From Taklimakanibacter deserti (GTDB taxonomy: Bacteria > Pseudomonadota > Alphaproteobacteria > Rhizobiales > Aestuariivirgaceae), in the NCBI GenBank assembly GCA_003574785.1, contig QORU01000004.1, positions 248,001 to 312,000 on the forward strand: DNA of 64,000 nt. The letters are read 5' to 3'. Below are positions 24,896 through 46,830 of this stretch, in pieces. The number at the start of each line of letters is the position of its first letter. The first letter of the stretch is position 1. Under the pieces are notes generated by a model. It searched no databases and was not told where the DNA came from. It saw nothing but the letters and a program-made list of their open reading frames with translations. The position numbers and the translations under genes were made by a program.

Positions 24896-26632
24896 CTATG
24901 CGGAGACGCGTGCGCGCGGCGTGCTGGAGACTCGGGCATAGCGCGTCTCGCTCGTCCACGGATAGCCGATCTCGCCGAACGAGCGATGAAGTTCGCTGTG
25001 CACATCGGCAAATTTCTGCGCGCGAGTGACGTCCAGATCATTGGTGAAGAGCATGAACCGCCGAATCGCTTCCGGCCGTGGCATGCCTTCTAGGGTCTCG
25101 AGGTGATCGGCGACACTGAGAACCTGGTGCAGATTTGCCTGCCGACACCCGTTGTCGGCATATTCACGAAGGCGCTCGGCCGCGAGAAGGCGCGCCGCGG
25201 GCGGCATGAGAGACAAGCGAAGCTGCTCTGGCCAATGCAGGATGTTGCTGAGCGTGAAATCCAGGCCAAGGTCATCGCAATAGCGGCAAAGGTCGGCGAG
25301 GTTCAACGCATTGTAGATCTGGACAACCGGAGTCACGCAAATAAAGGCATTCGGCAACTGTTGCAGAAGCCTGACGTTCTGATCCACGACCTTCCACTTG
25401 GCCGGGAATCTTATGTATTCATATGTGTCTCCAACACCGTCAATGCTCAAGGCGATGTTGAGGGAATCGAACCGGCCAAGCTTCTCCAGAATCTCGGAAC
25501 TCACCTTCGTGCAGTTCGTGTTGAATTCCAACAGGATGTGGTTGTTCTTGGACTGAATAAGAAAGTCGACTATTTCCGTTACCCTCTTCATCAAGAGAGG
25601 TTCGCCACCGGTGATATACAAGCGATCGATCTTGCCGGGATTCCTAAACAACTCGCCGAATATGAACGAATCTTCGTTCTCCCACAGCGTTCGTCCCGGC
25701 AGGCGGCTATAGAGCATCCGATTTGGCAACTCGGTCGCGGCGGACGGCTGGCGGAATAGGCGTATTTCCTCGACCGCCATCCCTTTATGATCCAAAGCGG
25801 CCTTGCCACCTGGGCTGGTTACCCGGATTTGGACCTGCAACGCTCCACTGAGTTTCGTATGGCGCAGATCGATTTTCACCTGCCGGTTCCCACGCGTTGC
25901 GGATTGCCGCGCGTGGACGACGCCATTCACCAGTACATCGAACATCTGATCCCGTTGCCCGGCTTCGTTAAGTTTGATTTCGAGCCGATTGGGAATCGTG
26001 GCTTCATCAAGTTTGAGATCGATCCCGGCACAATCGCCGGTCCAGCAATAACGATGCTCGGCGGCTTTTTCGGTTGCAGAGAATCCGCTTTGCGACACAC
26101 CCACCAGGGGATGCGGTCCGATGATTGCGGAGTCGGCGTTCCACACGACCAGAGGGATGCCGTCGAAACTCCAGCTGGGCGCCCAGCGGCTGTGCACAGG
26201 GTCTCGCTCGATCTGTGAGCTGGTCAAGGAGCCGCACATGCGGCATTCCAGATTGCACAGGCTTCCCAGCTCCAATTTGAAGAAGTTGGGCTGCTCGTCC
26301 ACCCGGAATTCATTCGCCACGGTCTCCTTGCGCACTTCCTCGACCGGTCGATCCATCATGCTGGCAGCGACTGTCGTCCGATAGCTTTGTCCTGACGCTG
26401 CTTCGTTCTTGTAGCAGCCCTGGCAATCAGGCACCGCTTCTCCCGCAAGCATCGCTCGCCGAACATCGCGCATATAGTCGGAGTTCCAGGCCTCCTCCAG
26501 GCTATGGTGGTAGACGGACATGGGGGCGCCGCCTTCGGTCATGACCTTGTGCGCCATGCAACACAGCTTGTAAGCCCCTTCAGTGCCGACGGTCAGATGC
26601 TTCCAAGGCAGGATACAGAATTTATCGGCCAC
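24896..26632 (-). CDS. Radical SAM enzyme (twitch/SPASM-like) with inserted beta-rich module
   Basis: A 578-residue cytoplasmic radical SAM protein. The cluster-binding motif is CNLECRMC (Cys126, Cys130, Cys133) and the SAM-binding glycine motif is ITGGEPLL (342-345). An N-terminal Cys module (FCILPWKHL with Cys6, Cys24-Cys25, then CQGC at 70-73) resembles the twitch/SPASM auxiliary cluster found in 'twitch domain-containing' radical SAM proteins. Oddly, about 200 residues separate the two core motifs instead of roughly 50; residues about 150-310 look like an inserted beta-sandwich (IPNRLEIKLN, MFDVLVNGVV, LQVQIRVTSPGG). Such proteins often sit with glycosyltransferases. Convergent with the GT fusion gene (24-bp gap) and 50 bp downstream of the small secreted paralogue. 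Confidence 0.8.
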   Translation of the reverse strand: MADKFCILPWKHLTVGTEGAYKLCCMAHKVMTEGGAPMSVYHHSLEEAWNSDYMRDVRRAMLAGEAVPDCQGCYKNEAASGQSYRTTVAASMMDRPVEEVRKETVANEFRVDEQPNFFKLELGSLCNLECRMCGSLTSSQIERDPVHSRWAPSWSFDGIPLVVWNADSAIIGPHPLVGVSQSGFSATEKAAEHRYCWTGDCAGIDLKLDEATIPNRLEIKLNEAGQRDQMFDVLVNGVVHARQSATRGNRQVKIDLRHTKLSGALQVQIRVTSPGGKAALDHKGMAVEEIRLFRQPSAATELPNRMLYSRLPGRTLWENEDSFIFGELFRNPGKIDRLYITGGEPLLMKRVTEIVDFLIQSKNNHILLEFNTNCTKVSSEILEKLGRFDSLNIALSIDGVGDTYEYIRFPAKWKVVDQNVRLLQQLPNAFICVTPVVQIYNALNLADLCRYCDDLGLDFTLSNILHWPEQLRLSLMPPAARLLAAERLREYADNGCRQANLHQVLSVADHLETLEGMPRPEAIRRFMLFTNDLDVTRAQKFADVHSELHRSFGEIGYPWTSETRYARVSSTPRARVSA

Positions 26633-27196: not shown

Positions 27197-27730
27197 TCAG
27201 CCGTCGGCCGGCTGGCGTCGCGGAGACCCTCGTCTGGCAACGGCGGAGGTTCCGCACGGCTTGATGAACCGGCTGGCATAGCCGTAGCTCATCGTCTTGA
27301 TGCTGCCGGACAGGCCGCCCCGGCTGCGAATCCAGGACCTCACCCAGCCGGGATAGTTCCGCATCATGAAAGCCTGTGCCACGCGGTTGCCGCGGCTCGA
27401 GGCGCCGAAAGGCGAATGGAAGCCGAAGGATGCGCCCGGGCTGATACAGGTCTGGCTCGACGCCAGTCCCAGATAGAGCGTGCAAGCCGACCGGCAGCTT
27501 CCGCTGAAGCGCACTTTCGTGCCGTTCTGCCGCCATCTCAGCATGCGCAGGCCGTAGTTGATCACCACGCCGCCGCTGTCGGAGCCGATCGATACGGCTC
27601 GCGGCGAATAGTCGTTGTTCGATGGCAGGCTGGCGAGCCTGACTTTCTTCCCGGCCAACGCGCCGTCGCCGCACACGGCGACCAGACAAGCCGTCAACAG
27701 CAAGGCGCGCACTGCTTTCGTGTTAATCAT
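27197..27730 (-). CDS. Secreted ClpP/COG3904-like protein of unknown function
   Basis: A 177-residue exported protein. With the ATG at 27730 (GGGAA upstream) it starts with a clean signal peptide ending GALA near residue 26; the open frame extends 29 codons further upstream but without such a signal. The mature part has DSGGVVINYGLRMLRW, then VRFSGSCRSACTLYLGL and SPGASFGFHSP. The pattern S-x-C-x-S-A-C followed by G-F-H recalls periplasmic ClpP/crotonase-fold proteins of the COG3904 kind, in which the Ser and His could be catalytic. Five Cys in the mature part suggest disulfides. Family assignment is by pattern only. The gene is alone between the small secreted paralogue and the lyase-like gene. 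Confidence 0.55.
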   Translation of the reverse strand: MINTKAVRALLLTACLVAVCGDGALAGKKVRLASLPSNNDYSPRAVSIGSDSGGVVINYGLRMLRWRQNGTKVRFSGSCRSACTLYLGLASSQTCISPGASFGFHSPFGASSRGNRVAQAFMMRNYPGWVRSWIRSRGGLSGSIKTMSYGYASRFIKPCGTSAVARRGSPRRQPADG

Positions 27731-27957
27731 AAGCGAGATTCCCGTTCCCGAATATGACGCACAGTAATCGCGGACCTCACTGATCGGCGTTAGCAAAACC
27801 GCTACAATCCGAGACAACTTGCCAGCTGACTATTAGGTGCTTAATTGCGCATTGCTCAATACATTTAAGTTTAATGAAATTTTCCATCAAAATGACGAGC
27901 GTTTATCCGTAGCAATACGGAAACAGTAGACTCGAAGGGAAGCAGATCGCGGACGCT

Positions 27958-29790
27958 CTATTTCGGCAGCACGCCGGCTATGGACCTGGCTCTGCTTTCG
28001 GGCGGCTGCGGCCCGCCCGGATAGAACTTCGTCGCCGGATTCTCCTGCATGAAGTCATAGGCGACCATGCCCAGAGGCCGCTTCGGCCGGTCGGCCGGCG
28101 CCTGCCGCCAGGGGATCACCTGGCGCAGCGCCGCAAGCGCTGCCTCAGGCGCTGCACCGAACTTGCGCTCCGGCTTCTGGGCCTTGCGCACCTCCATCCA
28201 ATAGCTCGCGGTCAGGAGGTCCTGGGCCAGGAGGTGGAAGGAGAGATCGACCGCCTGACGGGCGCGCTGCGTCTTGAGGCGGGTCTGCGCCTCGAGATCC
28301 TCGACCGTCGCGACGATCGCCTGGCCGTTGGGCGTCACCGGCGTTCCGAGCGCTGCCAGCTCCTGCCACAGATCGGTCGGCAGATAGCCGTCGAAGCTCG
28401 GGATTTCCTTGCGCAGCTCGGGCGAAAGCACGTCGGCGGGCTTGACGACCGTGAAGAAGGGATTGCGGAAGCGCTCGATGCGTTGCGCCACCGCCACGCC
28501 GAGATTGGTGAGTGCCAAGGTGAAGGCCTCCACCTGGTTCGCCATCGGATAGGGATCCCAATTGGCGTTGGAGAGGATATAGCCGGACTTTCCGTTACTT
28601 AAGGGGCCGCCCTTGATGTAATACTTCATGAATTGCGGTGTCGCGAGCTCCGGCGCGCTTTCGGGCGTCAAGCCCGGCAGCACCGCCGGATTGTGATCCG
28701 ACGAATTGATCGACAGCAGCACCGAGTCCCTGAGTTCCGCCCAGGCCTGCCAGGCCGAGCCCTGGCGCTGGCTCGAGGCGCGCAGGCTTTCCGGATCCTG
28801 GATGATGCGGGCCGGATCATCATCGAACAGATAGCTGCCCTTGATCATGTCCATCACCCGCGCCGCATCCCAGGTCAGCCATTCATAGGGCCGCATCGCC
28901 TGCACCGGCGCCGCGATCGGCGTGACGCTGGAATTCATGCCGAGCAGGCTCATGGCATGGCTGAGATCGGTCCATTCGAGGAGCCGGCGCGCATCCGCGA
29001 CGAGCAGCACGGCCTGCGCCTGGGCATAGGCGTTGGTGCTGATGAGGGCGGCCTGATCGGCGGCGAAGGGCTCGAGCGGCTTGAGCCCTGCTTCCGTGAG
29101 CGCCTGGGCGGCCGGCATGCGCACGCCTTTGTGATAGGCATCGCCCTCGCCCACCATGGCGGCGGCGATATTGCCCATGGTCGGCAGGTCGCCCTCGCCC
29201 AGCGTGCCGCGCGACTGCACCACCGGCGTCACCCGCTTGTTGAGCATGTCGACCAGCATATGGGTCAATTGCGGACTCGCCGCCTCATAGGACATGGTAT
29301 TGGCGCGAATGGCCATAATGGCGCGGACCAGCGCTTCTTCTGAGAGCTCAGGCCCATAGCCCCGCGCGACGCCGCCCTTGAAGCGCTGGAGCTGCTGCTC
29401 GCTCAGGAGCTTCTTGTTCTCGGGCGATGTCGGATCGCCGGAGAAGATCACCGTCTCGCGCTGGTCGCCGGCGCCGCGGTTGAACCAGTAGATGGTGACG
29501 CCTTCCGCCGCCCCTTGCAGCAGCAGCCCATAGGCATCGGCCGAGCGCTGCAGCGCCTCGGCGCTGAGCTCGGCCTTGGCGCCGTTGCGCGCGACGTCGA
29601 TCACTTGCTCGATGGTGAGATCACGCCCCGTCAGCGTCACCGTCTTGTCGGCCATCGTCTCGCTGATCGGCTGATAGATCTGTGTCGGCTCGAAGGCTGG
29701 CGCGACGGAAGGCGCCAGCAGGAGAGCCGTCGCCAAAGCGAGTGAAAGCAGCACAATCCTGGATTTGCGACACACGATCAGATCGCTCAT
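27958..29790 (-). CDS. Secreted aromatic amino acid lyase (HAL/PAL) homologue lacking the MIO triad
   Basis: A 610-residue member of the histidine/phenylalanine ammonia-lyase superfamily. Diagnostic regions are IYWFNRGAG (Tyr101, matching the catalytic Tyr loop of the family), RGTLGEGDLPTMGNIAAAMV (194-213), QDPESLRASSQRQG (331-344, matching Q-D-x-Y-S-L-R-C-x-P-Q) and NSSDHNPAV (362-370). The Ala-Ser-Gly that cyclises to the MIO electrophile in ordinary members is absent: where GASGDL is expected the sequence reads GEGDL. A signal peptide (hydrophobic 11-30) indicates export, unlike the cytoplasmic lyases. So this is probably not a normal ammonia-lyase; isomerase, binding or a new lyase chemistry are possible. 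Confidence 0.8.
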   Translation of the reverse strand: MSDLIVCRKSRIVLLSLALATALLLAPSVAPAFEPTQIYQPISETMADKTVTLTGRDLTIEQVIDVARNGAKAELSAEALQRSADAYGLLLQGAAEGVTIYWFNRGAGDQRETVIFSGDPTSPENKKLLSEQQLQRFKGGVARGYGPELSEEALVRAIMAIRANTMSYEAASPQLTHMLVDMLNKRVTPVVQSRGTLGEGDLPTMGNIAAAMVGEGDAYHKGVRMPAAQALTEAGLKPLEPFAADQAALISTNAYAQAQAVLLVADARRLLEWTDLSHAMSLLGMNSSVTPIAAPVQAMRPYEWLTWDAARVMDMIKGSYLFDDDPARIIQDPESLRASSQRQGSAWQAWAELRDSVLLSINSSDHNPAVLPGLTPESAPELATPQFMKYYIKGGPLSNGKSGYILSNANWDPYPMANQVEAFTLALTNLGVAVAQRIERFRNPFFTVVKPADVLSPELRKEIPSFDGYLPTDLWQELAALGTPVTPNGQAIVATVEDLEAQTRLKTQRARQAVDLSFHLLAQDLLTASYWMEVRKAQKPERKFGAAPEAALAALRQVIPWRQAPADRPKRPLGMVAYDFMQENPATKFYPGGPQPPESRARSIAGVLPK

Positions 29791-29900
29791 GAGATGAGCC
29801 TCCCCGGCTGACCGTCCTCACGAGAGACTATCGACCGCAGAGCGCGCGTCAATCCTTGCACAGAGTGTGGCAGGTCTTCTTTGTCGTCATGACTTGCGTT

Positions 29901-30506
29901 TCAGGGCAGCCACATCGGGATGATCGACAGCGCGAGAAATGCACCGAGCAGCATGTTGGTCAGCCGCCATTGCCAGTCGGCGGTGAGAAACCGCGCCAGC
30001 AGCTGGCCGGCGACGCACCAGAGCGACAGCGAAAGGATGGCCGCCGCTCCGAAGGCCACGCCGAGCAACAGCGCCAGCGCGCTTGGGTTGTTGGCGAGCG
30101 CCGCAAAGGACAGAGCGGCGGCACTGGTCATCGCCCAGCCTTTGGGATTGACCCACAAGAGCCATATGCCGGTGATGAACCGCGTCGGCCGCGCCATTTC
30201 CTCGGCCAGACGCGGCGGTCCGCTCATGGCGATGCGCCAGGCGAGCCACAACAGATAGAGCGTGCCGATCGTCTTCATGGCGAGCTGCAGGGACGGCACC
30301 GCGATGAGCAGGCTCGCCAGGCCAATCGCGGCGGCGGCCGCCATCGATGCGAGGCCAAAGGCGATGCCGACCATCAAGGGCAGCGACCGGCGATAGCCGA
30401 AATGAGCGCCGGACGCGGTGGCGAGCGTCGTGGCGCCTCCCGGGGTCACGGTAGCCACGAGGGCGAAAAGGATGAGCGGCAGAAGCTGGTCCATGATCCA
30501 TGGCAT
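29901..30506 (-). CDS. LysE-family amino acid exporter
   Basis: A 201-residue inner-membrane protein with about six transmembrane helices. The N-terminal VATVTPGGATTLATASGAHFGYRR (conserved TPG) and the mid-protein LLWVNPKGWAMT (conserved NPK) are hallmarks of LysE/RhtB exporters of amino acids or their analogues. I place the start at 30506, preceded by GGGAATG, rather than at 30554. It is divergent from the LysR gene at 30574 across 67 bp, the usual arrangement for LysE exporters and the regulators that sense their substrate. Confidence 0.85.
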   Translation of the reverse strand: MPWIMDQLLPLILFALVATVTPGGATTLATASGAHFGYRRSLPLMVGIAFGLASMAAAAAIGLASLLIAVPSLQLAMKTIGTLYLLWLAWRIAMSGPPRLAEEMARPTRFITGIWLLWVNPKGWAMTSAAALSFAALANNPSALALLLGVAFGAAAILSLSLWCVAGQLLARFLTADWQWRLTNMLLGAFLALSIIPMWLP

Positions 30507-30573
30507 GCGGCATTCCCAGACATTAGGGAAATGAATGTTGAAAATGCCTGCCATTAGAGTTCATAATGCCGTC

Positions 30574-31443
30574 ATGGCACGCAATCTCGACATCGACCTG
30601 ATCCGGACCTTCATCGCCGTCGCCGATCATTCCAGCATGACCGCGGCCGGGAATGCCCGTTACCTGACCCAGAGCGCCGTCAGCCAGCAGATCCGGCGGC
30701 TCGAGGACACGCTGGGCCTTGCCCTGTTCGAGCGCGACCGGCGCGGCCTCAAGCTGACGCCCTCAGGCGAGCAACTGCTCGCCAAGGGCCGCAGGCTCAT
30801 CGCCCTCAATGACGACATTTGGGGGGAAATGACGGCGGGCCATGTGCAGGGCAAGGTCCGCCTCGGCCTGCCCTATGACCTGGTCGAGCCCTGCATCGCG
30901 CCGGTGATCAAGGCCTATGCCTCGGCCCATCCGCAGGTCGAGATTTCGCTGACCTGCGCCGCCTCGCCCGATTTGATCGCAGGGCTCGCCGAAGGTGCCA
31001 TCGATCTCGCCGTCGTCGAGGAGCCGCAAGGGCCGAGCGCCGGCGAATGCCTGCGGGTCGAGCGCCTGGTCTGGGTGGGCGCTCGAAATGGCGGCGCCTG
31101 GCTCAAGACGCCTTTGCCGGTTTCGATGGTCGCCGACACCTGCGCCTTCCGCCCGGCCGTGCTCGCGGCCCTGGAGCGGCAGGACCGCGCCTGGCGTACC
31201 GTCTTCGAGAACGGCAATATCGAGGCGACCACCGCGACGGTGCGTGCCGATCTCGCGGTCACGGCCTGGCTCGTCTCGACCGTGCCCGCCGACCTCGAGA
31301 TATTGGGGCCCGACAAGGCGCCGACCGATCTGCCGCTCTTCGCCATCAATTTGCATCTGCCGAAAGGCGGCCTTGCCCGGCCGGCCGCGGAAATGGCGCG
31401 CTATCTGCGCGAGGGTTTCGCGCGCATGCACCACGCGGCGTGA
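30574..31443 (+). CDS. LysR-family transcriptional regulator (of the divergent exporter)
   Basis: A 289-residue regulator: N-terminal winged helix (residues about 5-65; LIRTFIAVADHSSMTAAGNA, then SAVSQQIRRLEDTLGLALFER) and a periplasmic-binding-fold ligand domain. It is divergent from the LysE gene and probably activates it when the exported amino acid accumulates. Start at 30574 puts the helix at the usual distance from the N-terminus; ATGs at 30535 and 30544 are possible. It runs convergently into the GH3 gene with a 3-bp gap. Confidence 0.88.
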   Translation: MARNLDIDLIRTFIAVADHSSMTAAGNARYLTQSAVSQQIRRLEDTLGLALFERDRRGLKLTPSGEQLLAKGRRLIALNDDIWGEMTAGHVQGKVRLGLPYDLVEPCIAPVIKAYASAHPQVEISLTCAASPDLIAGLAEGAIDLAVVEEPQGPSAGECLRVERLVWVGARNGGAWLKTPLPVSMVADTCAFRPAVLAALERQDRAWRTVFENGNIEATTATVRADLAVTAWLVSTVPADLEILGPDKAPTDLPLFAINLHLPKGGLARPAAEMARYLREGFARMHHAA

Positions 31444-40606: not shown

Positions 40607-43600
40607 TCAATAATCCCATTCGGCGCCGATGCCGACCTCGGTGCTGCCATCGGCGCCGGTCGCCCCTTGCGCCCTGATATTCTTGGTGATGTCGACATCG
40701 ATCGTGACCTTGCTCGAATTGGGCTGCGCCCCCTGCTTCACCCCGAGATAGATCCGGTCATTGAGCCTCTTGCCCATGCCGACCTCACCGCCATTCTCGG
40801 TGCCGACATCGAGACTGTCGACGCCCAAGGATCTCCGCATCTTGTCGAGCACGCCCGGCCCCGATCCCGACAATTGCGCGACCGTCTGGGCGAGCTGTGC
40901 CGCCTGGCTGAGCGTCAATTCGCCGGCCCCCTTGTCGAACAGGATGCGCGCGATCACCTCGTCCTGCGGCAATTGCGGCGTCGAGGCGAAGCTGATCTTG
41001 GGCTCTGAGGCAGGGCCCGTGATGAGGATCTGGGCGGTGATGCCCTCGCTTTCGGTCTGCGCCACGAAATCGAGATCGGGATCGAGCGAGCCGTTGAAAG
41101 AGATCAGGCCCTTGGTGAGATCGAGACGCTTGCCGAAACCTTCGAACCGGCCGCGCTTGGTCGTAAAGCCGCCTTGCGAGCGGGGAGCCGCGCTCGTGCC
41201 GCGCACAGTGAGATCGCCGCCGAGCTCGGCCTCGACACCCATGCCGCGCACGAAGATGCCATTGGGCGCCGAAAGCGTCACGTCGAGATCGGCGATGAAG
41301 CCTGAGCCGGCCGCCGCATTCTCTTTCGCCTTCTTCGCCGGAGCGAGCTTGGCGCCGGCGAGCTTCTTGCCTTTGGGCGCCCCGACATGACGGACCTCGA
41401 TCGGCTTGGTGGCACCCGACAGCCTGTCCGGCAGGTTGATGTCGAGCCGCTTGATGTCGACGCGCCCGGTGATCTTCGGGCGCGTCATGATGGGACCTCG
41501 CGTCTGCACTTTGCCATCGGCGATGAGCCGCGCCGTCTCGCTCGAAACCAGCGCCGCATTGGCGAAGGAGACATCGATATCGGCCGGGATGCCGGCATTG
41601 GGATCGATGGTGGCGCGTCCCGCGAGCGTGACGGTCCCGCCATTCACGGTCTGGCCGCGGATGTTCTGCAGGACGAGCGCGCGGCCGTCGCCGGCGATAT
41701 CGCCATTGATCTTGGTGATGGTGACGCCATTGATCAAATCGTCGAAGCGCCCGTCGGAAAGCCGCACTGTTCCCTTGATCGCGGGCGCCGCAAGCTTGCC
41801 GGTTACCGTGGCATCGATCGCGGCCTTGCCCGCGAGACGATTGCCGGACGCGGCCAGGAATGCATTGGCGAGCGACAGGTCGACCGCGCCCTGCGCGGCA
41901 AGGTCGAGCGTCGACTGGGCCAGGGCGAGCGAGCCCTTGACCCGCATGTCCTGGAGCCGCGGATTCTTCATCACCATCGCAAGTCCCACACGGCCGCCTT
42001 TCACCTCGCCTTCGGCCGCGATGTCGAAGGTGCCGGCACCGCTGCGCACGATATCGGGATTGCTCAAGTTCGTGATCTTGAGATCATAGCGTCCGTCCGG
42101 TGTTTGCGGGCGGCCTGAGATCCTGATCGTTCCATCGAGCGTGCCCCCGATGTCATCCTCATAGCCACCGAGCCGGGCGAGCGACAAAGGCAGGCTCGCG
42201 AGCTTCACGTCGAGCGCGAGGGACTCAGGTCCGGCCCTGCCCGAAAGCGCAGCGCGACCTTTGCCGGTCGAAAGCGCGAAATTGTCGATGGTCACGGTGC
42301 TTTGGGCGAAGCGGATTTGCGAAGGCGCCACAAGCGCCGCGCGGATGCCGTCGCGCGCCAGGCTGAGGGCCCGGAGATCGAGCGATGTCGCTGCCTCGGC
42401 GATGGTGGCCTTTCCTTCGGCCTTGATGCTCGTGCCATCGACGAGCGCGTCGAGAGCGAGGTCGCTCTCACGTCCGGTGCCATTGGCGGTGAGCTTGGCG
42501 CGTTCGACCTTGACCCCGCCAGCCGCCATGTTGGCGACATCGAGATCGCCGATGAACAAGGGCACGCCGAATACGTCACGCAAGGTGCCGTCGACCGACG
42601 CTTTGCCAATGGCCTGGCCCGCAGCACGCAAACCCGAGGCCTGCGCCTTCACGGCGACATCCTGCTTGCCCTGCTCTGGTGAGAACGTGACATCGGCCGT
42701 AAGCTTGCCCGCCATCGGCATGAGCGCCAGCGCTGAAAGATCGGCGAGATCGTCCGCCGCGATCTTGAGCGTCCCGCCGATGAGGCCGCCCTCTACGAGC
42801 TCGAGCCCGCCCTTCGCCTTGTTCGCGCCGACGGTGAGATCGATGGTCTCGAAGCGATAGAAGTTCTGGGCCAAGGTCGCGAAACGCACGAGGCCTTTGG
42901 CCTCCTTGTCGGCGATGCGCCCGGCAAGGGTGAGATCGCCCGAAGGTCTGCCGGTGAGATCCTGGGCTTTGACGGTGACGGCGAGATCCTGGACGGGCTT
43001 GCCCATGGCGCGGCCGGCCGGCACGGTCAGCTCGGATACGAGGTTCAACTTGTCGAGCGTGCCCGAGAAGGAGGCCGTGGCCTTGGCCGCCCCGCTCACG
43101 CGCGCATCGATGAGAGCCAGATCGCTGAGCGAGAGATCGGCCTTGAGATCGGCGGCGCTGCGGTCGATGCGGCCGGCGACGGTCAGCGCCGCGTCCTTCG
43201 CCTTGAGGCTCGTATCCTCGACGATAATGACACCGTCGGCGCCGCGCTGGACACTGCCCGAGAGCTCGGCCGGCCCCTTGAGCAGCCCATCGACGGCGGC
43301 AATGCCGGTGATGACACCGATCGAGCTTCCACGGCCCGAGACGCGGATCAGCGTCTCGGTCATGTCGACATCGGCATCGAGGGAGACCTGGCCACCGAGC
43401 GGGCGCCCGGCGAGCGGCGAGAAGGCCGCGAGATCCAGCCGTCCGAGACGGAGCTTGCCTTTCACCGCTTCCGCTGCCGCGGCACCGGTGAATTCCGCGG
43501 CGAGCGGTGCCAGCTTGATCGTGGCTGCAGACAAGGCCGGCTTTCCGGCCTTGTCGATCAGCCCGGTGAGCGCGAAATCGAGAGTCTCGCCAAGCGCCGC

Positions 43601-44878
43601 CGCGACCTTGGGATCATCGGCGGTCAAGCCCTTGGCATTGCCATCGCTGGTGAGCGCGAAGGCGCCGTCGGCCTGCGGCACCATTTCCACATTGGCGCTC
43701 ATCATCTGAGCGCCATAGCCTTGCGCCCGGGGCTCGGTCACCGTGATCGCCGCCTTGACCTCCGGCCGTTCGATGAGGCCGTTGAGCGTGCCGTCGACGA
43801 ACCAGTCCTGCCACCGGGCTTGCGGGACCAGTTGGGCAAAGCGCTCGGCGGCGCCGCCGATCACCGTGTAGCGCAATTGCGCCTGGCGCGCTCCCGTATC
43901 CACCGTCCCCTTGAGCGTCGCGCCGATGCCGGCCGCCTCGAGCCTCGCATCTTCGATGGCGACGCGCTGGGCCGCATCGACGGTAAGCGCGGTGTTGATT
44001 TTCGTGGTCCCCTCGAATAGCGGCGCGGCGGCAGCCGGCAGCAGGCCTGCGATCTTACCGGCAAGGGCGAGCTTGACCGCATGGCCCTCGCCTGCGCGCT
44101 TAACACCGGCGTCGCCTTTCGCCTGGATGGCGGGACCAGCCGTAAAATTCAGTGATGCCGTGAAGTCGTCGAGCGATCCCTTGCCCTTCACCGCAAAACG
44201 GACCGGCGGCCGGCCGGCAATCTGGGCCAGCCCGGCAATAAGCCCGCCTTCGGGCTCGTCCGCGGCGACATCGATGTCGAGCGTTTGGGCCTCAGGCACG
44301 AAGATCACCTTGCCGGCGATTTTTCCGGCGATGTCGCGGCGGTCGAGCGCGAAATCGAGGAAGAGCCCCTCGGCAGGATCGGTGAGACGCGCCGAGCCCG
44401 CGAAAGACAACCGCATCGCCTGGCCGATCACCGGGTCCGCGATATCGATTTCAGCCACGGCAAGACGCTGGATGTCGAGACGCGGCAGTGCCGGGCTCGC
44501 CGCCGGCGTGTTTTCCGGCGCGGGCGGCAGCTCCGGCTGGCGCAGGACGGAGATTTTACGCGCACCGATCGCTTCGGCCGACACCATGCCGCTGGCGAGC
44601 GCCAGCGGGCTCCAGGATATCTCGAGCCCTTCGACGATGGCGAATGTGCCCTTGGCATCGGCGAGCGCGATGCGCCCGATTCCCATGCGGGACGGCACGA
44701 AACCTTCGATGTCGGATATCTGGATGATGAGGCCGTTGCCCGAAGCGAGCGTGCCCGCTCTGCTGGCGAGGAAGCTTTTGCCGGGTCCGGTCTGGAGGGC
44801 GCTGAAGGCGGCGGCGATGAGAAGAACCAGCCCCGCAAGGGCGAAGAGGAAATATCTTAAGACCTTGCGCAGCCGCAT
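40607..44878 (-). CDS. tamB: Translocation and assembly module inner-membrane-anchored protein TamB
   Basis: A 1423-residue protein anchored by an N-terminal transmembrane helix (about residues 8-28; YFLFALAGLVLLIAAAFSAL) with a very long, strand-rich periplasmic part. The C-terminal ~350 residues are the TamB domain (DUF490), with GSGFIADLDVTLSAPNGIFV, LDPDLDFVAQTESEGITAQI and a final strand pattern ending IGAEWDY. It forms a bridge across the periplasm for outer-membrane protein or lipid transport, working with TamA. Its ATG overlaps the tamA stop (TGATG at 44876-44880). Size and order match alphaproteobacterial tam operons. Confidence 0.93.
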   Translation of the reverse strand: MRLRKVLRYFLFALAGLVLLIAAAFSALQTGPGKSFLASRAGTLASGNGLIIQISDIEGFVPSRMGIGRIALADAKGTFAIVEGLEISWSPLALASGMVSAEAIGARKISVLRQPELPPAPENTPAASPALPRLDIQRLAVAEIDIADPVIGQAMRLSFAGSARLTDPAEGLFLDFALDRRDIAGKIAGKVIFVPEAQTLDIDVAADEPEGGLIAGLAQIAGRPPVRFAVKGKGSLDDFTASLNFTAGPAIQAKGDAGVKRAGEGHAVKLALAGKIAGLLPAAAAPLFEGTTKINTALTVDAAQRVAIEDARLEAAGIGATLKGTVDTGARQAQLRYTVIGGAAERFAQLVPQARWQDWFVDGTLNGLIERPEVKAAITVTEPRAQGYGAQMMSANVEMVPQADGAFALTSDGNAKGLTADDPKVAAALGETLDFALTGLIDKAGKPALSAATIKLAPLAAEFTGAAAAEAVKGKLRLGRLDLAAFSPLAGRPLGGQVSLDADVDMTETLIRVSGRGSSIGVITGIAAVDGLLKGPAELSGSVQRGADGVIIVEDTSLKAKDAALTVAGRIDRSAADLKADLSLSDLALIDARVSGAAKATASFSGTLDKLNLVSELTVPAGRAMGKPVQDLAVTVKAQDLTGRPSGDLTLAGRIADKEAKGLVRFATLAQNFYRFETIDLTVGANKAKGGLELVEGGLIGGTLKIAADDLADLSALALMPMAGKLTADVTFSPEQGKQDVAVKAQASGLRAAGQAIGKASVDGTLRDVFGVPLFIGDLDVANMAAGGVKVERAKLTANGTGRESDLALDALVDGTSIKAEGKATIAEAATSLDLRALSLARDGIRAALVAPSQIRFAQSTVTIDNFALSTGKGRAALSGRAGPESLALDVKLASLPLSLARLGGYEDDIGGTLDGTIRISGRPQTPDGRYDLKITNLSNPDIVRSGAGTFDIAAEGEVKGGRVGLAMVMKNPRLQDMRVKGSLALAQSTLDLAAQGAVDLSLANAFLAASGNRLAGKAAIDATVTGKLAAPAIKGTVRLSDGRFDDLINGVTITKINGDIAGDGRALVLQNIRGQTVNGGTVTLAGRATIDPNAGIPADIDVSFANAALVSSETARLIADGKVQTRGPIMTRPKITGRVDIKRLDINLPDRLSGATKPIEVRHVGAPKGKKLAGAKLAPAKKAKENAAAGSGFIADLDVTLSAPNGIFVRGMGVEAELGGDLTVRGTSAAPRSQGGFTTKRGRFEGFGKRLDLTKGLISFNGSLDPDLDFVAQTESEGITAQILITGPASEPKISFASTPQLPQDEVIARILFDKGAGELTLSQAAQLAQTVAQLSGSGPGVLDKMRRSLGVDSLDVGTENGGEVGMGKRLNDRIYLGVKQGAQPNSSKVTIDVDITKNIRAQGATGADGSTEVGIGAEWDY

Positions 44879-46830
44879 CAGAAGGCCTGTCCGATGCTGA
44901 CATAGATGCCATAGCCGTCATCGTCGGAGCGTGGATTGAGCGGGATCGCCGCATCGAGGCGGATCGGCCCGATCGATGTGTAGTAGCGAAGCCCGAGGCC
45001 CGCCGCATAACGAAGGCCGGAGAAATCCGGCACCTCGTCCTCGAAGGCGGCCCCCATGTCGAAGAATGGCACGACGCCGATCGTGTCGGTGACCTTCACG
45101 CGCAATTCCGCCGACGCCTCGAAGAAGCTCAAGCCGCCGATGATGTCGCCGTTACTGTTGCGCGGGCTGACGGACTGGTATTCATAGCCGCGGATCGATC
45201 CGCCGCCGCCGGCATAGAAGCGCCGCGCCGGCGGGACATCGGTGATGTCGGCGCCGACCAGGCTGCCGCCCGCCACGCGGCCCGCGACGATGAAGCGGTC
45301 GCGCTCATCGAGGGCCTGGTATCCCGAGAGCGAGCCTTTGGCGAGCACCGGCCCCGCGCCGGCTTCGCCCAGGAACACGAAGGGCTCGACCCGGGCGCTG
45401 GCGCGGATGCCCTCGGTCGGATCGAGAAGCGAGTCGGTCGAATCATAGATGACGTCGACCGGGATACCGGCCACGAAATCATCGCGCTTGCCGAAACTGT
45501 CCTCGACGAAGGCCTGCTCGAAATCGACGCCCACTTGCACCGAGAGATGATCGTCGAAACGGTGCCGGACGCCCGCGGTCAAGGTGACGGCATCGCGCAC
45601 ATAGGCGTCCGTCACCTCGCGCAAGATGGCGGCCTCTGAGATGAGATCGTCATCGACGCTGAAGATGCCGGGCTTGCCGAAGCTCACGGTCAGCGCATAG
45701 CCGAAAGGATCGGCATCGGGCACTGCGTCGGGCTCGCCGCCAAACCACGACACCTGGCCGTCGATGCGCAAGGTCTCGGCCCCGCCGAAGAGATTGCGAT
45801 GTCCCCAATAGGCGTTGGCCGCGGTGCCGTCGGTGCTCGAATATTTCGTGCCGAAGCCGAAATAGCGCGGCTTGCGCTCGCTGACCTCGACATCGACGGG
45901 AAGCAGGCCTGAAGAATCGAGCTGCTCCGCCTCTTTCAGCCTGACGCCGCCGATGATAGGATAGGAGGTAAGGCGCTTGCGCAGCTTTTCCAGGCGTTTC
46001 GGCGAATAGGGTTCGCCCTCTTCGACATCGATGCGGCTTACGACGAATTCAGGATCGAGGCCTTCGGTTCCCGACACCTGGAAGCGGCCGAAGCCGGCTC
46101 TGGGGCCCGCATCGACGAAGAGCGTCACATCGAGCCGCAATGTATTGTGGTCGGCCGCGACGTCTTTGCTGGCGATCTTCGCGAAGGGATGACCCTTGTG
46201 GCGCAAGTCGTTGACGATGATACGCTCGGCGCCGGCAATGGCAGGGCTCCGCGCCACCTCACCTTCGATGAGATCGCTATCTTCGATATCCGGCACATCC
46301 GGCATCGGCCGATGCGTCTTCGCATCCAGGATCCGCACCTTGCCGAAGCGGAATTGCGGGCCGACATCGACGGATATATCGACCGGCACGGCGCCTTTAC
46401 GCCGCGCCTTCTCGGCGGCATCGAAGACCCGCATGTCGTCGACCGGCACGCCGGCGATGCGGATACTGGTCTCGCCGGCATAATAGCCGTTCTCATAGAG
46501 GATCGCGGTGATGCCCTCGTAATCGGCAAGTGCGCGCTGTACCAGCCCGGCGGCGCCAGGTGCGGCCTTGTCCTGCAATGTCACCAGGCTCGAGCCTTCC
46601 TCGATCTGCGATTTGAGATCGCTCTCGGCATGATCGACCCTGATCGAAACCCTATAGGCAAGCGCATCGGCCACGGGCTCATCCGTTTCTTCGCCCCCGA
46701 ACCAGGAGAAGATGTCGTCAAGGACGGTCTTGCTCGCAACAGGCGTGGCGGTCAGGACTGAAAACATCGCCGCTGCGATGCCCATCACCCAGAAGCCACC
46801 CGCAAATCCCGAATCCACTCGCCGACGCAC
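44878..46830 (-). CDS. tamA: Translocation and assembly module outer-membrane protein TamA (Omp85/BamA family)
   Basis: A 650-residue outer-membrane protein with a signal peptide (about residues 1-33), POTRA domains (about 50-310; repeated ideas such as GFGRFQVSGTEGLDPEFVVS) and a C-terminal 16-strand barrel. Barrel motifs include GGGGSIRGYEYQSVSPRN, the lid-lock-like GG.GS.RGY region of Omp85 proteins, and a terminal Phe (IYVSIGQAF) as the beta-signal. It inserts substrates into the outer membrane with TamB, encoded directly downstream and overlapping. Start is a GTG at 46830; an ATG at 46785 would shorten the signal peptide. Confidence 0.92.
   Translation of the reverse strand: MRRRVDSGFAGGFWVMGIAAAMFSVLTATPVASKTVLDDIFSWFGGEETDEPVADALAYRVSIRVDHAESDLKSQIEEGSSLVTLQDKAAPGAAGLVQRALADYEGITAILYENGYYAGETSIRIAGVPVDDMRVFDAAEKARRKGAVPVDISVDVGPQFRFGKVRILDAKTHRPMPDVPDIEDSDLIEGEVARSPAIAGAERIIVNDLRHKGHPFAKIASKDVAADHNTLRLDVTLFVDAGPRAGFGRFQVSGTEGLDPEFVVSRIDVEEGEPYSPKRLEKLRKRLTSYPIIGGVRLKEAEQLDSSGLLPVDVEVSERKPRYFGFGTKYSSTDGTAANAYWGHRNLFGGAETLRIDGQVSWFGGEPDAVPDADPFGYALTVSFGKPGIFSVDDDLISEAAILREVTDAYVRDAVTLTAGVRHRFDDHLSVQVGVDFEQAFVEDSFGKRDDFVAGIPVDVIYDSTDSLLDPTEGIRASARVEPFVFLGEAGAGPVLAKGSLSGYQALDERDRFIVAGRVAGGSLVGADITDVPPARRFYAGGGGSIRGYEYQSVSPRNSNGDIIGGLSFFEASAELRVKVTDTIGVVPFFDMGAAFEDEVPDFSGLRYAAGLGLRYYTSIGPIRLDAAIPLNPRSDDDGYGIYVSIGQAF

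Follow-up and report, generated by a model that had tools for sequence, protein, structure and literature searches.

The window analyzed here, a 64,000-nucleotide (64-kb) stretch of Taklimakanibacter deserti DNA (contig QORU01000004.1, positions 248,001 to 312,000), encodes at 27958..29790 on the minus strand a 610-amino-acid protein (ATG start) of the PF00221 lyase family that combines a signal-peptide-like N-terminus with the loss of the Ala-Ser-Gly triad, the source of the 4-methylideneimidazole-5-one (MIO) electrophile in histidine ammonia-lyase (HAL) and related enzymes. On balance, we favor the interpretation of an MIO-independent, ergothionase-type lyase that is exported, probably to the periplasm, and eliminates an amine, most likely trimethylamine, from an aromatic or heteroaromatic betaine; both this activity and the substrate are inferred. 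Ergothionase, a member of the family that also lacks MIO, splits trimethylamine off a histidine betaine (PMC13405746), so that the window enzyme probably acts on a related compound and does so outside the cytoplasm. We class it as an exported variant of the ergothionase-like kind, and its chemistry has a known precedent rather than being categorically new. As far as a superficial survey of the open-access literature goes, what seems to be new is the extent and the export of MIO-less lyases, with no fewer than two groups whose members are mostly exported; in one of these groups, the pocket-type residues differ from those of ergothionase.

Triad site and export signal

The PF00221 profile scored the window lyase at 332.6 bits, against a curated cut-off of 27.3, which places it in the Lyase_aromatic superfamily. 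The motifs IYWFNRGAG (with Tyr101; 29467..29493, minus strand, as are all features of the gene given below), QDPESLRASSQRQG, and NSSDHNPAV, listed in the original prediction, were verified in the translation. The curated HutH model TIGR01225 scored the protein at 183.7 bits, below its cut-off of 539.15, ruling out an ordinary hutH product. At the triad site (29185..29199, close to the originally proposed 29190-29210), GEGDL stands in place of GASGDL, as predicted: the sequence is one residue shorter, without a frameshift, and Glu199 takes the place of the Ala-Ser pair; Asp201 is the equivalent of HAL Asp145. Given that the Ala-Ser-Gly characteristic of MIO enzymes is absent, no MIO is expected in this protein.

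From the best 120 of 2807 homologues, we aligned those longer than 540 amino acids as representatives of the window clade. The triad was missing in all 115 aligned proteins, including the closest homologue (P0001), a 98% identical protein from a separate record; the site reads GEGDL in 107 of these proteins and GE[AS]D[IL] in the other 8, and Glu199 is present in 153/153 rows of the thinned window-clade alignment. Nothing favors the alternative that the triad was lost through a sequencing or assembly error, and this conservation excludes it. The original prediction also named signal-bearing homologues with Ala-Ser-Gly as a case that would speak against it; none was found among the 115 aligned window-clade proteins or among 120 proteins of a second MIO-less group (group B, described below). 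These lists cover the best-scoring homologues, so that exported proteins with the triad may exist further out. Two adjacent copies of the exported lyase occur in six loci (L016, L022, L026, L028, L029, and L059), and in L016 and L028, one of the two copies carries the diverged motif GE-ADG. Window-clade lyases are also present in L050, L055, and L057, which are metagenome-assembled genomes (MAGs) assigned to Eremiobacteria and Solirubrobacterales.

The predicted signal peptide comprises residues 1-32 (29695..29790), with the cleavage site after APA set by eye. Signal peptides were scored with a simple home-made rule requiring a hydrophobic core with positive charge ahead and small residues behind, applied to the window clade, the ergothionase-like proteins, and group B; the HAL-type sequences, whose starts are uncertain, were left out. 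By this rule, which agreed with the original prediction for the window protein, the signal was found in 91/120 window-clade proteins, 78/120 group B proteins, and 0/120 ergothionase-like proteins. Inspection by eye of the 29 rule-negative window-clade proteins revealed some truncated entries and some evident signals missed by the rule. Seven members of a GE[AS]DI subgroup (P0045, P0048, P0049, P0052, P0053, P0055, and P0061) apparently are genuinely signal-less, and the window-clade protein of Rhizobium ruizarguesonis likewise starts without a signal peptide; thus, export is the rule in this clade, with exceptions. The window protein itself is probably exported to the periplasm.

Active-site residues and proposed reaction

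The best sequence match in the PDB was ergothionase (6s7j, 155.9 bits), followed by HAL (7tqr, 95 bits), and a Foldseek search with the predicted structure of the window lyase also returned 6s7j as the best match (E = 3.5e-27). The ergothionase hallmark, GE[GA]D together with an NRG loop, is present in the window lyase. We counted residues, after thinning, in 153 window-clade, 122 group B, 106 ergothionase-like, and 12 HAL-type sequences; the window-clade counts omit four locus rows, two from other groups and two treated as fragments. The HAL-type sequences, drawn from 45 PF00221 matches in 15 related genomes, all keep a triad, 11 of them with Ala-Ser-Gly and L087 with Ala-Cys-Gly. HAL numbers 145, 280, and 329 were taken from mutant names in PDB titles; the others we take to be 53, 195, 283, and 414.

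Several residues occur in both the window clade and the ergothionase-like proteins but in 0/12 HAL-type rows: Arg105, in the IYWFNRGAG loop (153/153 and 104/106, respectively), Glu199 (153/153 and 104/106), Asn286 (153/153 and 105/106), Glu421 (153/153 and 106/106), and Ser251, in the place of HAL Asn195 (141/153 and 98/106). The tyrosine at HAL position 280 is, like Asn195, substituted in nearly all rows of both groups, by Glu334 in 142/153 window-clade rows (QDPESLR motif, 28780..28800) and by leucine in 103/106 ergothionase-like rows. Retained in all groups are Tyr101 (HAL Tyr53) and Arg337 (HAL Arg283, in the QDPESLR motif), along with Glu497 (HAL Glu414, in the motif VEDL, 28294..28305; 146/153 in the window clade) and Asp201, which is present in every row apart from one in group B (121/122). 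The window clade differs from ergothionase at position 111 (ergothionase Lys64), which is arginine in 153/153 window-clade rows and lysine in 106/106 ergothionase-like rows, and in the motif NANWDPYP (28546..28569), where Trp411 (HAL Phe329) replaces phenylalanine and Asp412 (histidine in HAL) replaces the mostly glutamate residue of ergothionase. Compared with both ergothionase and HAL, the window protein also contains about 28 inserted residues (373-400; 28591..28674). Taken together, the residue pattern suggests the reaction type of ergothionase with a different side chain of the substrate.

The original prediction offered two options, different chemistry or a binding or structural role, on the assumption that MIO formation is common to the whole HAL family. 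This assumption is outdated given the MIO-less ergothionase (PMC13405746), and with the same GEGD and NRG motifs in that enzyme, the first option is supported yet precedented. The second option, a non-catalytic pseudoenzyme, is quite improbable: the loss of MIO, by itself, would fit it, but Tyr101, Arg105, Glu199, Asp201, and Arg337 are each invariant (153/153) in the window clade, and ergothionase shows that an enzyme with this loss can still be catalytic. The original prediction was right in that the tyrosine loop is retained and the pocket looks to be in use. The window protein is probably active as an exported MIO-independent lyase.

Without an electrophile to activate an ordinary ammonium, such an enzyme would eliminate an amine that is already a good leaving group. 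The amine released would most likely be trimethylamine, and the substrate an N,N,N-trimethylated amino acid (betaine) with an aromatic or heteroaromatic side chain. Removal of the beta-proton would fall to Tyr101 or a residue close to it, with Arg337 binding the carboxylate and with Glu199 and Arg105 filling the old MIO site close to the quaternary ammonium. The products, a cinnamate- or urocanate-type acrylate and the amine, would both then be imported and used.

Family tree and other groups lacking the triad

Phylogenetic trees of 68 and 75 rows were built with the triad columns excluded, from rows selected for maximal distance within a set that thinning had reduced from 366 to 283, plus added rows; both trees are unrooted, and L087 was counted on the triad side. 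The window clade was recovered with support of 100/100 in both trees, and the ergothionase clade with 100/99 (68 rows) and 100/100 (75 rows). A well-supported branch (100/99 and 100/98, respectively) parts the window clade, group B, and ergothionase from the GAxD, HAL, and GYL rows, so that the GAxD group, although MIO-less, falls with the MIO enzymes across that branch. The MIO side was supported at 100/99 in both trees, with a group carrying a three-residue deletion (SxGY---L) nested within. Group B obtained 97/90 for two rows in the 68-row tree and 50/93 for 16 rows in the 75-row tree, where it joins ergothionase at 95/75, with the window clade beside both. In constrained comparisons with the approximately unbiased (AU) test, holding the window clade and ergothionase as one clade was not rejected (p = 0.366), and holding the window clade with HAL and GYL was narrowly unrejected (p = 0.0505). 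With lengths of 1.48 and 1.38, the stem of the window clade is a long branch.

The distribution of the triad on the tree can be explained by two changes, and since the trees are unrooted, gain and loss of MIO are indistinguishable. One might speculate that MIO is derived, that is, that the earliest lyases with the HAL/PAL fold acted without MIO on quaternary-amine betaines, in many cases as exported enzymes, that Ala-Ser-Gly arose once later and enabled the use of ordinary amino acids, and that the window clade consists of living periplasmic betaine lyases acting on aromatic substrates other than ergothioneine. We consider this scenario rather unlikely.

Group B, compiled as the best 120 of 1738 relatives of a Polaromonas protein, none of which (0/120) carries Ala-Ser-Gly, has members in Achromobacter, Bordetella, Polaromonas, and on a Sinorhizobium meliloti plasmid. 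It resembles the window clade in being MIO-less and mostly signal-positive (78/120) and in Arg105 (114/122), but differs in the mostly GE-AD or GQ-AD motif, Phe at position 411, and Lys at position 111 (110/122). As a unit, group B is weakly supported (50/93), and in a quick tree it does not form one side of a branch. In the records among the best 120, these proteins are named histidine ammonia-lyase or HAL/PAL/TAL family ammonia-lyase. A GE-AD lyase with a signal-like N-terminus is encoded on a Paracoccus saliphilus plasmid (L122:7917-9605), directly after genes annotated hutI, hutH, hutG, and hutU. Such a hut operon context is expected of an exported enzyme that feeds a (thio)urocanate-type product into histidine breakdown.

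This operon bears on the alternative that the window protein is a plain exported ergothionase whose natural substrate is ergothioneine or its sulfonate, which we regard as possible but unlikely. Ergothionase is the nearest characterized relative by both sequence and fold, its GEGD and NRG motifs are identical to those of the window protein, and distant exported kin reside in a hut operon; however, the pocket-type differences (Arg111 for Lys, Trp411 for Phe, Glu334 for Leu, and Asp412 for Glu) and the long branch that sets the window clade apart argue against it, as does the lack of matches to hutI, hutG, and hutU within the window.

Two further groups of deviant lyases were observed. The SxGY---L HAL-like proteins (L093:1405-2967, L094:1420-2955, L104:1387-2958, and L040:788-2317) lack three residues at the triad and have no Asp145 equivalent; they form a single clade nested among the MIO enzymes. 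The MIO-less GA-[AGS]D group includes L058:12794-14305 and proteins of L096, L097, L105, L106, L107, and L108. The neighbors of these lyases include flavoprotein and UbiD-family genes in Komagataeibacter and a LysE gene in Aestuariivirga (L112); in L108, a HutH-type lyase and a gene of the DMGDH type are found nearby.

Gene neighborhoods and relation to known enzymes

Just upstream of the window lyase, on the same strand, is a gene for a LysE-type exporter (29901..30554, minus; PF01810, 44.4 bits), and a LysR-type regulator is encoded divergently (30535..31443, plus). This order recurs in L001 (Aestuariivirga) and L064. We compared 77 loci, namely, the window and 76 loci, some of them short, that were obtained in a search with the clade alignment, of whose 82 matches the best 80 were kept; flanking genes were predicted with a home-made gene caller, and a single representative of each family served to count its relatives by similarity. 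In 15/77 loci, 10 of these from Mesorhizobium, the lyase has a LysE-type gene no more than two genes away. TonB receptors flank the lyase in 25/77 loci, and three loci of acetic acid bacteria contain a further TonB cluster. In many relatives, a TonB receptor could deliver the substrate to the periplasm; the neighbors of the window gene are the exporter and the regulator. Other recurrent neighbors are TPR-sulfotransferase-like proteins (17/77) and PhnD-type binding proteins (12/77, 8 directly downstream), along with MTTB-family proteins (6/77), DMGDH/SDH- or GcvT-type proteins (17/77), FolD (10/77), and flavin oxidoreductases (6/77).

For 50 of the 77 loci, for which 46 genomes were searched, we estimated expected numbers of neighbors, with genome sizes rounded to 0.1 Mb. 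Genes of N-methyl-amine catabolism exceeded expectation: there were 7 MTTB genes near the lyase versus 0.64 expected, and 12 DMGDH/SDH-type proteins longer than 600 amino acids, 9 with strong scores, versus 0.75 expected; the loci are related to one another, so that nominal p-values overstate the significance. In R. ruizarguesonis, the gene of the signal-less relative follows those for an ABC transporter (two permeases, two ATPases, and a binding protein), which appears to be Opp/Dpp-like, and for a protein with acyl-CoA-ligase domains. In Komagataeibacter, a TonB-cluster gene precedes that of the exported lyase, and past a regulator, on the opposite strand, are the GAxD lyase, a flavoprotein that could be UbiX-like, and a UbiD-family gene. 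Both operons would fit an aromatic acrylate product.

These neighborhoods also bear on the possibility of an MIO-less lyase with another leaving group or reaction, without loss of a quaternary amine, acting on a non-betaine substrate. N-methyl-amine genes lie near only some of the loci (MTTB in 6/77) and are absent from the window, and the recurring TonB, TPR-sulfotransferase, PhnD-type, and desaturase-type neighbors spell no betaine pathway, but the residues shared with ergothionase and the excess of N-methyl-amine genes near the loci weigh against this reading, which we consider distinctly unlikely. Some observations count against the betaine lyase that we prefer. The hut-operon protein is only a distant relative of group B: in the quick tree, the closest rows to the P. 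saliphilus and P. denitrificans proteins are those of group B, but these are still remote (the S. meliloti row at a path of 1.7), and no branch sets group B together with both Paracoccus proteins apart from the rest. No MTTB match was found in 12/46 genomes, including seven from sphingomonads and acetic acid bacteria (G004-G010), six of which have no FAO_M match either. Finally, the 64-kb window contains no relative of MTTB, DMGDH, FolD, TonB, or flavin oxidoreductases, in addition to the hut genes mentioned above.

Elsewhere in the window, a scan of 27600-30800 for promoters and terminators yielded counts near chance. A small protein with a signal-like start is encoded at 27197-27739 (minus), with no Pfam match at E 0.001; similar proteins adjoin the lyase in L001 and L064. 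The window also encodes a radical SAM protein with a twitch domain at 24896-26632 (minus; NF033640, 308.8 bits versus a cut-off of 170) and a TamB- and TamA-like pair at 40607-46830 (minus), both under the curated cut-offs.

In the databases, window-clade proteins among the best 120 of 2807, where named, are called histidine ammonia-lyase or aromatic amino acid ammonia-lyase, a reaction that they probably do not perform. A superficial survey of the open-access literature found no account of an exported MIO-less lyase, and in the accessible part of an article on the evolution of MIO enzymes (PMC9002059), the string "ergothion" does not occur. If the proposed function is correct, at least two exported MIO-free lyase families, seen mainly in Proteobacteria and their MAGs, would break down aromatic betaines with release of trimethylamine or a similar amine, and carbon and nitrogen turnover would include a route that is not yet mapped. 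The MIO-less lyases are also a natural comparison set for the HAL/PAL fold with and without the electrophile.

Compared with HAL (TIGR01225; PDB 1b8f), the window lyase has the same predicted fold and the equivalents of Tyr53, Asp145, Arg283, and Glu414, but lacks Ala-Ser-Gly, has Ser251 and Glu334 in place of Asn195 and Tyr280, and carries a signal peptide. The similarity to ergothionase of Treponema denticola (6s7j/6s7q) is closer, extending from the PF00221-type fold to GEGD for GASGD, the NRG loop, Ser at the position of HAL Asn195, the absence of Tyr at that of HAL Tyr280, and the retained Arg283 and Glu414 equivalents. Ergothionase, however, is a protein of about 500 amino acids with no signal-positive relatives (0/120), whereas the window protein is signal-positive, contains the insertion of about 28 residues, and in the pocket region has Arg for Lys64, Trp for Phe, and Glu for Leu.
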